From Burkholderiaceae bacterium (GTDB taxonomy: Bacteria > Pseudomonadota > Gammaproteobacteria > Burkholderiales > Rhodocyclaceae): a DNA stretch of 64,000 nucleotides. Position 1 is the first letter of the stretch. The number at the start of each line of letters is the position of its first letter. The stretch covers positions 18,910-82,909 of the forward strand of contig JAIPCT010000002.1 of NCBI GenBank assembly GCA_021738065.1, given 5' to 3'. The notes beneath the pieces were generated by a model. The model saw only the letters and a program-made list of their open reading frames with translations, ran no database searches and had not been told where the DNA came from. A program made the position numbers and the translations under genes. This document shows positions 22,539-29,675 of this stretch, piece by piece.

Positions 22539-22678
22539 TACGCTGCCTCCGCAGGGCCGCCCCAAGGGGGCAGCAAATCAATGCATGGAAGTCGCCGCGC
22601 AGTTCGCGGCGGCTGAACCAAAGTCGCCCCCGTCCTCGGGTGGGGGGCCGGGGGGAAGGCTTTCATCACGCTGCCTCC
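22536..22678. repeat. Direct repeats flanking a palindromic insertion between gltB and gltD
   Basis: The 15-base sequence CAT(T/C)ACGCTGCCTCC occurs at 22536-22550 and 22664-22678 with one mismatch. On the coding strand it is GGAGGCAGCGT(A/G)ATG: at gltB it spans the last codons and stop, at gltD it is the ribosome binding site plus start. The DNA between is rich in GC hairpins, such as CGCCGCG-CAGTT-CGCGGCG and GCCGCCCC-AA-GGGGGCAGC, resembling intergenic repeats common in betaproteobacteria. The simplest reading is that gltB and gltD once overlapped at GTGATG and a small element inserted with a 15-base target duplication. Confidence 0.7.
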
Positions 22679-25600
22679 AACCGGGTCGATTTTTGCGCCA
22701 TCTCGGTCAATGCGCGCCGATACTCGTTCGGGAAAACCTTGACGAACAAATCGCGCGCAGCCGCCCAATTGGCCAGTACCGCCTTGGCGTGCGTGCTGCC
22801 GGTCCGTTCCAGATGCTGTTCGAGCATGCGCTTGAGTTGCACTTCGTCAGCTTCGCCGCGATGCCTGGTGCCATCGTTCGCCTGTTTACTGGCCGGCAGG
22901 AGTTTTTCCAGCACGACCATCGCTTTGTTGCAGCGACTGGCGAAATGGCCGTCGGCGTCATACACATAAGCCACGCCGCCCGACATGCCGGCGGCAAAAT
23001 TGCGCCCGGTGGCGCCCAGGACGACGACGGTGCCGCCCGTCATGTACTCGCAGCCGTGATCGCCGGTACCCTCGACCACCGCCTGCGCGCCGGAGTTGCG
23101 CACACAAAAGCGTTCGCCCGCCACGCCGTTGAAGTTGGCCTCACCATCGGTCGCGCCATAGAGCACGGTATTGCCGACGATGATGTTCTCTTCCGCCGGG
23201 CCGCGGAAACCTTGCGGTTTGCGCACGATGATGTGTCCGCCGGACAAGCCCTTGCCGACGTAATCATTCGCCTCACCGGTCAGATCCAGGGTGATGCCGC
23301 GCGCGAGGAAGGCACCGAAGCTCTGTCCGGCCGTGCCGGTGAGTTTGATGCTGATCGTGCCGTCGGGCAGGCCCGCCGCACCATAGCGCTTGGCCACCGC
23401 GTTGGACAGCATGGCGCCGCAACTGCGGTTGACGTTGCCGATCCGGGTTTCGATGAGGACCTTTTCGCCGCGCTTGAGCGCAGGCGCGGCCTTGGCAATC
23501 AAGACATGATCGAGCGCACCCTTCAAGCCATGATCCTGGGTTTCGCAATGCAGGCGCGCAACTTCGACCGGCATCTTCGGCTGATAGAAGATCCTGCTGA
23601 AATCCAGCCCGCGGGCCTTCCAGTGATCGATGCCCGGACGCGTGTCCAGCAGATCGCTGCGACCGATCAGGTCGTCGACCTTGCGCACGCCCAAATTGGC
23701 CATCAACTCGCGCACTTCCTCGGCGACGAAGAAGAAGAAGTTGACCACATGCTCCGGCTGGCCGGTAAAGCGCCGACGCAAGATGGGATCCTGCGTGGCG
23801 ACGCCGACGGGGCACGTGTTGAGATGGCATTTGCGCATCATGATGCAACCCTCGGCGACCAACGGTGCCGTGGCGAAACCGAATTCGTCGGCACCCAGCA
23901 GGGCACCGATGACGACATCGCGCCCGGTCTTCATCTGACCATCGGTCTGCACCCGCACACGGCCGCGCAAGCGGTTGAGCACCAGCGTTTGCTGCGTTTC
24001 CGCCAGACCCAGTTCCCAGGGCGTACCGGCATGCTTGATCGAGGAAATCGGCGATGCGCCGGTACCCCCATCGTGACCGGCAATGACGATATGGTCGGCC
24101 TTGGCCTTGACCACGCCAGCCGCGACGGTACCGACGCCGACCTCGGACACCAGCTTGACCGACACTGAGCCTTCCGGATTGGCATTTTTCAGATCATGAA
24201 TCAACTGCGCCAAATCCTCGATGGAATAGATGTCGTGGTGCGGCGGCGGTGATATCAGTTGCACACCCGGTACCGAATGACGCAGAAAACCGATGTATTC
24301 GGAAACCTTGTGACCAGGCAACTGGCCACCTTCGCCGGGCTTGGCGCCCTGCGCCATCTTGATCTGCAACTGGTCGGCGTTCGCCAGGTACTCGGCAGTC
24401 ACGCCGAAGCGGCCTGACGCCACCTGCTTGATAGCCGAGCGCAGCGAATCCCCTGCCTGCAGCGGCGTGTCACGCTCGATATTGGCCTTGCCGATGACGC
24501 TGGCCACCGTCTCGCCAGCGCCGACTTTCTGGAAGCGCTTCGGATCTTCGCCGCCTTCCCCCGTATTCGACTTGCCGCCGATCCGGTTCATGGCGATGGC
24601 CAGCGTGGTGTGCGCTTCGGTCGATATCGAACCAAGCGACATGGCCCCGGTGGCAAAGCGCTTGACGATTTCCTTGGCCGACTCGACTTCCTCAAGCGGA
24701 ACCGGCGGCCCCGCCGGACGGATGTCGAACAAGCCGCGCAACGTCATGTGACGCTTGCTCTGGTCGTTGATCAGCGCCGCGTATTCCTTGTAGGTTTCGT
24801 ACTTTCCAGAACGCGCGGCGTGCTGCAGCTTGGCGATCGTATCGGGCGTCCACATATGGTCTTCGCCACGAATGCGGAAAGCATAGTCGCCACCGGCGTC
24901 GAGCGCATCGGCGAGTACCGGATCATTGGAGAACGCCGCGCGATGGACGCGCACTGCTTCCTCTGCGACCTCGGCCACACCAATGCCCTGCACTTTGCTT
25001 GGCGTACCGGTGAAGTAGCGCGCGACAAATGCCGACTCGAGACCGACGGCTTCGAAGATCTGTGCACCGCAATACGAGCGATAAGTGGATATGCCCATTT
25101 TGGACATGACCTTCATCAGTCCCTTGCCGATGGCCTTGATGAAATTCTTGCTGGCCTGGCGATAGTCGCCACCGTCCGACTGACACATGTCGCTGATGGT
25201 TTCCAGCGCCAGCCAGGGGCACACAGCTTCGGCGCCATAACCAGCCAGCAGGGCGAAATGATGCACTTCGCGCGCCGAGCCGGTGTCGACCACCAGACCG
25301 CAGTTGGTGCGCAGTCCCTGTCGCGTCAGATGATGGTGGACCCCCGAACAGGCCAGCAGGGCCGGAATCGCCACGCGCTGCCGATCGACGCTGCGATCGG
25401 AAAGAATCAGCACGTTGTAACCCTCGGCAACCGCCTGCTCGGCGGCGACGCACAAATGCTTGAGCGCCTCCTCGCAGCCGAACGGACCTTCGGCAACAGG
25501 GTAGGTGATGTCCAGTACCAGCGACTTGAAGCGGCCGCCGGACAAGCGGGCAACATCATGCAGGCGCGAAATGTCGACTTCATCGAGCACCGGCTGCTTG

Positions 25601-27303
25601 ACCTCAAGACGCGGCGTCACTTCCTCGTTCCTGTTGACCAGACCCAACAAGTTGGGCTTCGGCCCGATATAGCTGATCAAGGACATCACGATTTCTTCGC
25701 GTATCGGATCGATCGGCGGATTGGTCACTTGCGCAAACAGCTGCTTGAAGTAGCTGTACAGCGGCTTGTTCTTGGCCGACAGGACTGGCAGCGCTGTATC
25801 GTTGCCCATCGCCCCGGTCGGTTCCTCGCCATTGGCCGTCATCGGTCCGAGGATGAACTTGCAGTCTTCCTGGGTGTAGCCGAAGGCCTGTTGCGTGTCG
25901 AGCAGAGATTCCTTGAGATCGGCCACGGCGCGCAGGCGCGGGACGGGAAGATCGTCCACAAACACGCGGGATTCCTCGATCCACTTGCGATAGGGTCCCT
26001 CACTCGCCAAGGAACTTTTCAGTTCGTCGTCATTGATGATGCGGCCCTGCTCCAGATCGATCAGGAACATCTTGCCCGGTTGCAGGCGCCATTTCTTTAC
26101 GATCCGCTCTTCGGCGATCGGCAGCACGCCGATCTCGGAAGACATCACCACCAGATCATCGTCGGTGATCAGATAGCGGGCCGGACGCAGACCGTTGCGA
26201 TCGAGTGTCGCGCCGATCTGGCGGCCGTCGGTGAACGCCACGGCAGCGGGGCCGTCCCACGGCTCCATGATCGGTGCGTGAAACTCGTAGAAGGCACGGC
26301 GTTCCGGCTCCATCAGCGGATTGCCGGCCCAGGCTTCCGGGATCAGCATCATCATCGCGTGGGTCAGGGAAAAACCACCCATCACCAGCAGTTCCAGCGC
26401 ATTGTCGAACGATGCCGAATCGGACTGGCCATCGTAAATCAGCGGCCAAATCTTCTTCAGATCGTCACCGAGCACTACCGAGGAAATCGCCTTCTGCCGC
26501 GCGCGCATCCAGTTCACGTTGCCGCGCAGGGTGTTGATTTCCCCATTGTGGGCAATCATGCGGAAGGGATGCGCCAGGTCCCAGGTCGGGAAGGTATTGG
26601 TCGAGAAACGCTGGTGCACCAGTGCCAGGGCGGTCACCAGGCCTTTGTTGCCCAGGTCGAGAAAATACTCGCCGACCTGATTGGCCAGCAGCATGCCCTT
26701 GTAGACCACGGTGCGCGCCGACATCGAGGTCACGTAGTACATCTTGCCGTCAGGGAGCTTCAACGCCTGAATGGCGTGGCCCGACTCCTTGCGGATGATG
26801 TAGAGCTTGCGCTCGAGCGCATCGGTGTCGGCGGTACCTTTGCCACGCCCGATGAACACCTGTCGAATGACGGGTTCGATGTCTTTGGCCGCCTGAGCGA
26901 GGCCGGCGTTATTGCACGGCACATCGCGCCAGCCGAGCAGCGTCTGCCCTTCGGCGGCAATGGCTCCATTGATCGCGGCCTCGCAGGCTTGGCGACTCGC
27001 TACATCGCGTGGCAGGAAAATCATGCCGACCCCGTACTCGCCAAGAGGCGGCAACGCGACCCCCTGCCGGGCCATTTCCTTGTGGAAAAACTGGTCGGGA
27101 ATCTGGATCAAAATGCCGGCGCCGTCGCCCAGCAAGGGGTCGTAGCCGGTCGCCCCGCGGTGTTCGAGGTTTTTCAGGATCAACAAGCCCTGCTCGACGA
27201 TGGCATGGCTTTTCTGGTTCTTGATATGCGCGACAAAGCCGACGCCACAGGCGTCGTGCTCGTTTGCCGGGTCGTAAAGACCCTGGGACTGGGGGAGGAC
27301 CAT
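22666..27303 (-). CDS. gltB: Glutamate synthase large (alpha) subunit
   Basis: Converts glutamine and 2-oxoglutarate to two glutamates, the main ammonium-assimilation route with glutamine synthetase. 1545 residues from ATG 27303, with GAGGAAAG upstream. An 18-residue propeptide precedes Cys19 of ACGVGF, which should be the N-terminal nucleophile after processing. The central and FMN-binding synthase domains include [35 protein letters not shown] and [11 protein letters not shown]. The 3Fe-4S ligands are in [15 protein letters not shown]. The C-terminal beta-helix has [14 protein letters not shown] and GCEYMTGG. An expansion loop after EGGEDPKRF, usual for betaproteobacteria, contains motif copy 5 (KVGAGETVA). 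Own promoter and a terminator-like leader lie upstream. Confidence 0.98.
24503..24528 (-). repeat. Dispersed 26-base motif, copy 5 (in gltB)
   Basis: AAAGTCGGCG, CTGGCG, AG, ACGGTGGC. Encodes KVGAGETVA in a loop that is variable among GltB proteins, just after [10 protein letters not shown]. Confidence 0.65.
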
Positions 27304-27330
27304 CTTTTCTTTCCTCGGAAATGCGGCCGG

Positions 27331-27361
27331 CAAAAAAGCCGGGGCGATGCCGCTCCCCGGC
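27331..27361 (-). terminator. Intrinsic-terminator-like hairpin in the gltB leader (candidate attenuator)
   Basis: On the minus strand a stem GCCGGGG / CCCCGGC with a 10-base loop is followed directly by TTTTTT (27332-27337), 28 bases before the gltB start. The 3' arm can instead pair with the GCCGG just after the T run, so two exclusive folds are possible. It could end read-through from dgt, but it also lies downstream of the gltB promoter and would therefore act on gltB itself. Confidence 0.65.
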
Positions 27362-27369
27362 CTTGAATG

Positions 27370-27389
27370 GTCCGCCGAACACGGCGGAC
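27370..27389 (-). promoter_or_regulatory. First hairpin of the gltB leader
   Basis: Perfect 7-base stem GTCCGCC / GGCGGAC with a 6-base loop, just after the predicted transcription start and before the terminator-like hairpin. With that hairpin it makes a structured leader of about 90 bases. Confidence 0.55.
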
Positions 27390-27398
27390 GAACGTGCG

Positions 27399-27427
27399 AA
27401 TATACCGCTAATGGAGCTCGATTTCAA
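27399..27427 (-). promoter_or_regulatory. Sigma-70-type promoter of gltB
   Basis: TTGAAA (-35, 27422-27427) and TATATT (-10, 27399-27404) on the minus strand, spaced by exactly 17 bases. The predicted start near 27392 gives a leader of about 89 bases to the gltB ATG. This is among the best promoter matches in the window and shows that gltBD need not depend on the aroK-aroB-dgt transcript. Confidence 0.65.
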
Positions 27428-27463
27428 TACGCTGCAACGCAGCATCCGAGTCGCCGGCCCGCT

Positions 27464-28579
27464 TCAAAGCTCTCCCACGGAGAACAGGCGACGGTGCTCC
27501 TTCATCGAATAGCGGTCGGTCATTCCCGCGATGTAGTCAGCGGTGGCGCGGGCAAGGTTTCCATTCGCCGCCATCTCCTGATACTGCGGCGGCAAAAGGC
27601 GGGGGTTTTCGGTGAACGCCGCGAACAGATCGCGAATGATACGGCGCGCTTTGGCCGTCATTCGAAGCACTTCGTAGTGATGGTACAAATGCTCACGCAG
27701 GAAACCCTTGAGTTTCTGGTTCTCTTCCTGCATCGCATCCGTAAAGGCGATCAGCGCGGGTGCGGCATGGATATCGGCCAGGGTTAGCGGCGCAGCAGCC
27801 TGAATGCGCCGCGTCGATTCCGCAAGCAAGTCGGCTACCTGAGCGCCGATCATGCGGCGTATGGTTTCATGTACGCGCCGGCGCAGGGATATTTGCGGAA
27901 ACTCACGGTCGGCTTCCGTGGCATGTCGTGAAAACAGGCTGACCTGATCGAGTTGCTCCAGTGTCAGCAAGCCCGATCGCAGGCCGTCGTCGACATCATG
28001 GTTGTTGTAGGCAATTTCGTCGGCCAGATTGCATATCTGGGCCTCAAGCGATGGCCTGCGGTCCTCGATGAAGCGCTGCCCGAGATCACCGAGTTCCCTC
28101 GCTCGCGCCGGCGAGCAGTGCTTGAGTATTCCTTCGCGCGTTTCGAACATCAGATTGAGGCCGTCGAAAGCTCCATAACGCTCTTCAAGCCGATCAACGA
28201 TACGCAGGCTCTGACGGTTGTGCTCGAATCCGCCGTGCGCCTGCATGCACTCGTTGAGCGCCTCCTGGCCGGCATGCCCGAATGGTGTATGGCCCAGATC
28301 ATGGGCCAGGGCGATGGCTTCCGTCAGGTCGTCATTGAGGTTCAGCGCCCGCGCCACCGACCGGGCAACCTGGGCAACTTCGATACTGTGGGTAAGTCGG
28401 GTCCGAAACAGGTCACCTTCGTGATTGACGAAAACCTGAGTCTTGTATTCGAGGCGGCGAAACGCCGTGGAATGAACAATGCGGTCGCGGTCGCGCTGAA
28501 ATTCGCTGCGCGCCTTTGGGCGCGGCTCCGGCACAGCGCGACCTCGGCTGACGCCATCGCTTACCGCGTAGGACATCAT
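27464..28579 (-). CDS. dgt: Deoxyguanosinetriphosphate triphosphohydrolase-like HD protein
   Basis: Cleaves dNTPs to deoxynucleoside and triphosphate. 371 residues, the shorter dGTPase-like class usual in betaproteobacteria. HD-domain ligands are visible: His in [10 protein letters not shown], His-Asp in [17 protein letters not shown], and Asp in [15 protein letters not shown]-terminal [26 protein letters not shown] is the family's opening. Start MMSYAVSDG at 28579 sits one base after the aroB stop (TGA-A-ATG); the longer track ORF would overlap aroB. Third gene of aroK-aroB-dgt, a common betaproteobacterial order. Confidence 0.95.
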
Positions 28580-28580
28580 T

Positions 28581-29675
28581 TCACGCACGGCAGCACGATT
28601 CGATGGCAGCCACAACCTGGTTCTGGGGCGCATCGGCATGGGTAACGGCCTCGCCCAAGGACTTGAGTAGAACGAGGCGCAGCCTTCCCGCCACGACTTT
28701 CTTGTCATGAGACATCAGTTCGAGGTAGCGCACCGCGCCAAGTTTGGGGCCCTCGACTGGCAAGTTGGCGCGCTTGAACAGGCTGCGTATCCGATCGACT
28801 TCGGCCGCCGACAGCCACCCCAGGCGCTGCGATAGCTCAGCCGCCATCACGCTGCCGATGGCAACCGCTTCGCCGTGCAGGCAGACGCCGTAGCCGAGCC
28901 CCGTTTCGATGGCGTGGCCGAAGGTATGGCCGAGATTAAGCAAGGCCCGCCCACCGTCGCGCGCCGTTTCATATTCATCCGCGGCCACAACTTCTGCCTT
29001 GTTCATGCACGAGCGCTCAATGGCGTAGGCAAGGAGTTCGCCATCCTTTGCCAGTAGACCGTCCATATTGGTTTCGAGCCACTCGAGAAACGGCAGGTCG
29101 CGAATCAACCCATACTTGATGATCTCCGCCAATCCCGCGGACAACTCCCGGTCAGGTAGGGTTTTCAGCGTGTCCGTATCCGCCAGCACCAGTTTGGGCT
29201 GCCAGAAGGCGCCGATCATGTTCTTGCCGAACGGATGATTGATGCCGGTCTTGCCGCCCACCGATGAATCGACCTGCGACAGCAGCGTGGTGGGAATCTG
29301 GATAAAGGGGACGCCACGTTGAAACGTGGCGGCGGCGAAACCCGCCAGATCGCCGATCACCCCACCGCCCAAGGCCAACACGGAAGTGCCTCGATCGCAG
29401 CGATGCGTAAGCATGGCGTCATAGATCAGATTGAGTGACTCCCAGTTCTTGTGCGCTTCGCCATCGGGGAGAATGATCGGCGTAATGCCAACGCCGACTT
29501 TTTCGAGCGCATTGGCCAAGGTCTCAAGATACAAGTCGGCAAGCTTTACATTCGTCACCAGCGCGACGCGTTTTGTCTGCAGCATGGGAAGCACAAGGCC
29601 GGTCTGGGACAGCAATCCTTCACCGATCAGGATTGGATAACTACGCTCGGCGAGCGAGACATTCAGGCGACGCAT
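28581..29675 (-). CDS. aroB: 3-dehydroquinate synthase
   Basis: Second step of the shikimate pathway: DAHP to 3-dehydroquinate, NAD- and metal-dependent, cytoplasmic. 364 residues, standard length. Signature segments: PDGEAHKN near 74, [19 protein letters not shown] near 107, [20 protein letters not shown], and the metal ligands in [11 protein letters not shown] and HGEAVAIG. Overlaps the aroK 3' end by 13 bases, so translation is likely coupled. The segment [11 protein letters not shown] near 60-70 carries motif copy 6, in place of the usual more variable strand before LPDGE. Confidence 0.98.
29476..29501 (-). repeat. Dispersed 26-base motif, copy 6 (in aroB)
   Basis: AAAGTCGGCG, TTGGCA, TT, ACGCCGAT. 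Encodes KVGVGITPI. It shares a 17-base stretch including the preceding GCTCGAAA with copy 1 in icmF, so similarity extends upstream of the core. Confidence 0.6.

Follow-up and report, generated by a model that had tools for sequence, protein, structure and literature searches.

The 64,000-nt stretch of DNA analyzed here (hereafter, the window) encompasses the gene series pilQ-aroK-aroB-dgt-gltB-gltD, and the gltB leader lies on the minus strand between the dgt stop at 27464 and the gltB ATG (Table 1). A promoter, two hairpins, a T6 run, a ribosome binding site and a start codon had been read in this interval by a first-pass annotation; all of these were found on the minus strand at the positions given there. 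The putative promoter, TTGAAA-17-TATATT, has 10 of 12 matches and is the only one in 1.5 kb (shuffling expects 0.5); judging from the position of the -10 element, transcription would start at about 27393. It is followed by two stem-loops, the second of which has the form of an intrinsic terminator with a U6 tail. A generic terminator scan did not report this site because its limit on the loop is 8, and the loop here is about 10.

Table 1 Features of the gltB leader and the adjacent genes (positions in the window)
Feature	Position	Strand	Evidence or remark
PhaR/PhbF-type box, inverted repeat TGCTGCGTTGCAGC; core TGCN3GCA at 27441..27433	27431..27444	-	14 nt before -35
gltB promoter, -35 TTGAAA	27422..27427	-	promoter scan
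gltB promoter, -10 TATATT (spacer 17)	27399..27404	-	promoter scan
Hairpin 1, GTCCGCCG/CGGCGGAC (GTCCGCC/GGCGGAC)	27370..27389	-	five pairs changed on both sides
Intrinsic terminator, stem GGCCGGGG/CCCCGGC(U) and T6	27332..27362	-	predicted -16.3 kcal/mol; kept in 38 of the 41 genera where a promoter was called
GCCGG 3' of the T-run, pairable with the terminator 3' arm	27327..27331	-	judged not to be a switch
gltB ribosome binding site (SD) GAGGAAAG	27309..27316	-	sequence; kept across the genus
gltB ATG	27303..27301	-
gltB, glutamate synthase large subunit	22666..27303	-	NF008730, 1712.6 bits
dgt-type dGTP triphosphohydrolase gene, upstream	27464..28708	-	NF002326, 626.4 bits

The distance from the last T of the T-run to the gltB ATG is 28 nt, which leaves no space for a further promoter, so that the TTGAAA/TATATT promoter reaches gltB solely by read-through; any transcription starting further upstream must likewise pass the terminator to enter gltB. 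The gltB start codon is thus separated from its own promoter by an intrinsic terminator, as is expected of an attenuator of the intrinsic-terminator type. Within the window, a terminator was detected in the 115 nt upstream of 4 of 46 genes, gltB among them. Its placement directly after the promoter suggests that production of an enzyme central to nitrogen assimilation is held down by the early ending of many transcripts.

The leader region could be aligned over its full length in 30 of the 31 genomes of the same genus. Conservation was then traced across the family Rhodocyclaceae in the GTDB sense, a set that includes Accumulibacter, Azonexus, Dechloromonas and Thauera (genus names inferred) as well as Sulfuritalea, which NCBI places in Sterolibacteriaceae; the leader of the two loci annotated as Sulfuritalea (L062 and L064) is the same as in the window's genus, which makes a Sulfuritalea-like bacterium the very probable source of the window. 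Among the 147 family loci examined, from 46 genera, a promoter was called in 123 (41 genera), and 107 of these 123, representing 38 of the 41 genera, have a terminator between the -10 element and the ATG, usually in the form AAGCCGG...CCGGCTTTTTTGAC. When the family leaders were filtered to less than 75% identity, a terminator was present in 61 of the remaining 74, whereas dinucleotide shuffles, repeated for 20 rounds, gave 9.9 on average and 15 at most; the trait is not universal in the family, given the 13 filtered leaders that lack it. In loci named as Burkholderia-, Herbaspirillum- and Massilia-type, the leader terminator is mostly absent, and the trait accordingly appears to be lineage-bound. 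A covariance model built from the genus retrieves the leader, correctly positioned, in several further genera (best E-value 1.2e-12); in the window's own genome, the same model finds the gltB leader only (8.2e-25; next match 0.17), and the search for a second copy of the leader came out negative. Two further observations on sequence can be mentioned here. Where the RNA presumably begins (about 27393 in the window), diverse leaders of the family keep a GTTCGCCC-like stretch, and in four Sulfuritalea-like loci (L011, L016, L020 and L043), the terminator 3' arm, the T-run and GCCGG are tandemly duplicated, which lengthens the sequence ahead of the ATG by about 21 nt.

Conserved folding was analyzed in 29 distinct leaders from the clade to which the window belongs. 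In hairpin 1, both partners have changed at five pairs, a number matched by 3 of 500 shuffles; the terminator is nearly invariant and lacks covariation in this clade because it hardly varies at all. The covariation search among related gltB leaders, which the first-pass annotation had recommended, thus bears out hairpin 1 but yields nothing for the alternative pairing proposed there. In models of the nascent RNA, the terminator 5' arm is predicted to be sequestered with a value of 0.00 in the window versus 0.72 in shuffled leaders, and the average over the 29 leaders is 0.23 versus 0.64 in shuffles. Hairpin 1 therefore looks to be pro-termination, leaving the terminator 5' arm free, such that the RNA alone looks set to stop; with hairpin 1 conserved as a structure and the 5' arm kept free, termination would be the default in the window's genus. 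Tests of pairing, covariation and sequestration identified no mutually exclusive antiterminator in this genus. A second candidate pairing, between the terminator 5' arm and CCGGCC after the T-run, was rejected for lack of covariation. A general antiterminator across all leaders was rejected as well, since sequestration of the 5' arm shows no excess (0.50 versus 0.58 in shuffles). An antiterminator is not required of attenuators that employ trans factors or leaky termination.

Beyond this general picture, only single clades stand out for sequestration of the 5' arm, such as g68, which we tentatively take to be an Azoarcus-type genus. The g68 set consists of the leaders of the 16 of 17 genomes that matched, plus one leader of a related genus (loci L304 to L319 and L224), and here three helices share segments: A:B, B:C and the terminator C:D, with CACTGGCC as segment B. 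Helix A:B is paired in 95.2% of cells and has two pairs changed on both sides (7 of 500 shuffles), helix B:C is paired in 94.6% (23-49% in slid versions) and has pairs changed on one side only, and the terminator is paired in 97.6%; because the g68 sequences are related rather than independent, the shuffle figures are indicative only. Prediction places most of the 5' arm in an upstream pairing with segment B as long as the terminator 3' arm has not been transcribed. As modeled, the three helices are arranged as in an attenuator with competing structures; the pairing, and in part the covariation, conforms to a mutually exclusive antiterminator, making g68 a better candidate for a two-state element than the window.

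Known types of regulatory leaders were searched for as well. In the window, ATG is absent from the interval 27393 to 27332, and none of the reading frames is conserved among the 29 leaders, which rules out a leader peptide for the window's genus; a GTG frame seen in some g68 leaders was discarded as a candidate leader peptide, being lost in other leaders of that clade. For the window and 20 related loci, no Rfam family matched at the gathering threshold, and the best permissive matches were at chance level, so that catalogued riboswitches, the T-box and other Rfam cis elements can be ruled out for lack of a covariance-model match. A search of the accessible literature found no attenuator of gltB, and the main text of a 2010 genome-wide survey of attenuators does not mention glt (PMC2965389). 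The earlier remark that no described leader matches that of gltB agrees with these negative results from Rfam and the literature.

A close analogy appears in the Escherichia coli ampC attenuator, where the short leader likewise places an intrinsic terminator ahead of the gene and behind its promoter and encodes no leader peptide, although the gene and the lineage are different and the gltB leader is kept over tens of genera while the upstream genes change. The ampC hairpin can end the upstream operon too. The trp/his-type attenuators share with the gltB leader a leader terminator in an operon of amino acid metabolism and, in g68 only, competing helices; they differ in that gltB has no conserved leader peptide or regulatory codons and that the window has only about 30 nt of leader before the terminator. 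The cyanobacterial glutamine-sensing RNAs in Rfam (glnA RNA and the Downstream-peptide motif) are cis RNAs preceding nitrogen-assimilation genes as well, but the gltB leader shows no Rfam match and, in the window's genus, no conserved unpaired aptamer-like core.

Another feature of the locus concerns the promoter rather than the terminator. A TGCN3GCA dyad is located exactly 14 nt before the -35 element in 26 of 77 family representatives, against an expectation of 0.4 for any position within 30 nt. The motif published for PhbF is TG[N]TGC[N]3GCAA, and that for PhaR is CTGC[N]3GCAG (PMC3206438); the box in the window, CTGC-GTT-GCAG, is an instance of the PhaR motif, and it adjoins the -35 element as at phasin promoters. 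In the same genome, the same type of box lies beside the promoters of two of the three phasin genes (L300 and L302), and PhaR itself is encoded, such that both the operator motif at the promoter and its regulator are present. The TGCTGCNNTGCAGC box was rejected as a predictor by sequence alone: with one mismatch allowed, it has 61 matches genome-wide, most of the examined ones inside open frames, so that the sequence as such is unspecific and it is the fixed offset at gltB that carries weight. By way of this predicted PhaR-type operator, gltB may belong to a carbon-storage regulon; our search found no literature linking PhaR to gltB.

Because the dgt gene lies directly upstream on the same strand and no other terminator is found from the dgt stop to the gltB promoter, the hairpin could conceivably belong to dgt and have come to lie after the gltB promoter merely through the shortness of the intergenic region. 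The gene upstream of gltB varies, however, being a codirectional dgt, aroB, gdhA or PEP-binding-domain gene or else pntA, which lies on the opposite strand, and the promoter-terminator-gltB unit is kept where aroB, gdhA or the PEP-binding-domain gene replaces dgt. Among the six cases of divergent pntA (L071, L242-L245 and L252), the leader terminator is retained in five, 62-71 nt before gltB and behind a -10-like element (the promoters of these cases are weaker matches, read by eye); the sixth, in the Accumulibacter group (L252/L216), instead carries, upstream of its promoter, a hairpin followed by a T-rich tail. The terminator thus travels with the downstream gene and shows no dependence on a codirectional upstream one, and throughout the window's genus the gltB promoter sits between the dgt stop and the terminator. 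These observations make the assignment to dgt very unlikely and contradict the possibility, raised in the first-pass annotation, that this is only the dgt terminator, although a side role in ending transcripts of dgt or other upstream genes is possible. That annotation also envisaged a two-state switch, in which the terminator 3' arm would pair with GCCGG after the T-run and so prevent termination. Such pairing exists in the sequence, and in the full leader it is about as stable as the terminator (-39.2 versus -39.1 kcal/mol); in the equilibrium fold of the leader plus 40 nt of gltB, the pair probabilities are 0.84-0.92 for the GCCGG alternative versus 0.05-0.08. Yet conservation lends it no support: there are zero covarying pairs, one pair is broken in 8 of 29 related leaders, and many genera have GAC in place of GCC after the T-run. 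Moreover, the pairing forms only once the polymerase is past the T-run, that is, after the termination decision, and since it needs RNA made 3' of the terminator, it could matter solely for the read-through mRNA. We therefore give the switch almost no credence.

Harder to set aside is the explanation that the leader terminator is a constitutive brake that ends a fixed share of transcripts, with all regulation of gltB at the promoter. This overlaps with the attenuator reading, since some of the gltB transcripts end at the terminator in either case and the two differ solely in whether read-through is regulated, and it fits the lack of an antiterminator or sensor in the window's genus as well as the promoter boxes at fixed or frequent places (PhaR-type and, in some genera, NtrC-type). 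Against it, the competing three-helix layout in g68 suggests a switch at least there, and the strict conservation of the terminator sequence exceeds what a brake needs; we regard the brake as a real but lesser possibility. The promoter might instead produce a 5'-UTR-derived small RNA of about 60 nt that acts elsewhere, with gltB read-through being secondary. A short transcript with a conserved 5' stretch (GTTCGCCC-like), a terminal hairpin and U6 is the usual layout of a small RNA, but the element always adjoins gltB and is single in its own genome, and in the window's genus the 5' stretch lies inside hairpin 1, where the sequence varies and the pairing is kept. A small RNA as the main product is thus improbable.

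The reading that we consider probable from these comparisons is that gltBD is controlled by a cis attenuator that is distributed family-wide and apparently has not been described before. Under this attenuator model, gltBD would be transcribed from its own sigma-70-type promoter, the leader terminator would end part, and probably most, of the transcripts after about 60 nt, and gltB would be made solely from read-through transcripts; it counts against the model that a strong terminator ahead of a needed enzyme would demand substantial read-through. Since the window's genus shows neither a conserved leader peptide nor a known aptamer or an antiterminator, the level of read-through would be set, and possibly regulated, in trans, whether by a protein, by a small RNA or through the elongation state of the polymerase, and the most natural candidate for the signal would be nitrogen or carbon status. 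Trans-factor control or leaky termination remain as mechanisms. Hence the original proposal of a leader that acts by premature termination holds as regards the conserved promoter-terminator-gltB unit, independent of the upstream gene, whereas regulated attenuation is only plausible. A composite scheme, combining a family attenuator read, in most genera, by a trans factor responsive to nitrogen or carbon storage, a self-contained RNA switch in g68 and a PhaR-type operator, is tentative and, taken as a whole, rather unlikely.

Glutamate synthase is half of the main route of ammonium assimilation, and its commonly described regulators, Nac, Lrp and GltC, act at the promoter. A regulated leader terminator, if real, would add a control point for this enzyme at the level of termination, and the genera with a gltB leader terminator include those of wastewater phosphate-removal and denitrifying communities. 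If functional, the PhaR-type box would link carbon storage with nitrogen assimilation in bacteria that are studied for polyhydroxyalkanoate.

Promoter regions of gltB in other lineages show additional sites. An NtrC-like sequence, TGCACC-N5-GGTGCA, lies between the gltB promoter and the terminator in eight Thauera-type loci (L109, L126, L206, L207, L209, L227, L239 and L241), and all of these except L239 have a T run directly after the -10 element (TATAGTTTTTTT), where initiation slippage could occur. NtrC-like sites also occur immediately upstream of -35 in L084, L163, L175 and L229, where they overlap with the TGCN3GCA box or directly adjoin it. In four loci of the Herbaspirillum/Massilia/Undibacterium type (L100, L101, L120 and L127), the TGCN3GCA box, for example TTGCGCTGCA, is located within the spacer that separates the -35 and -10 elements of the putative gltB promoter.
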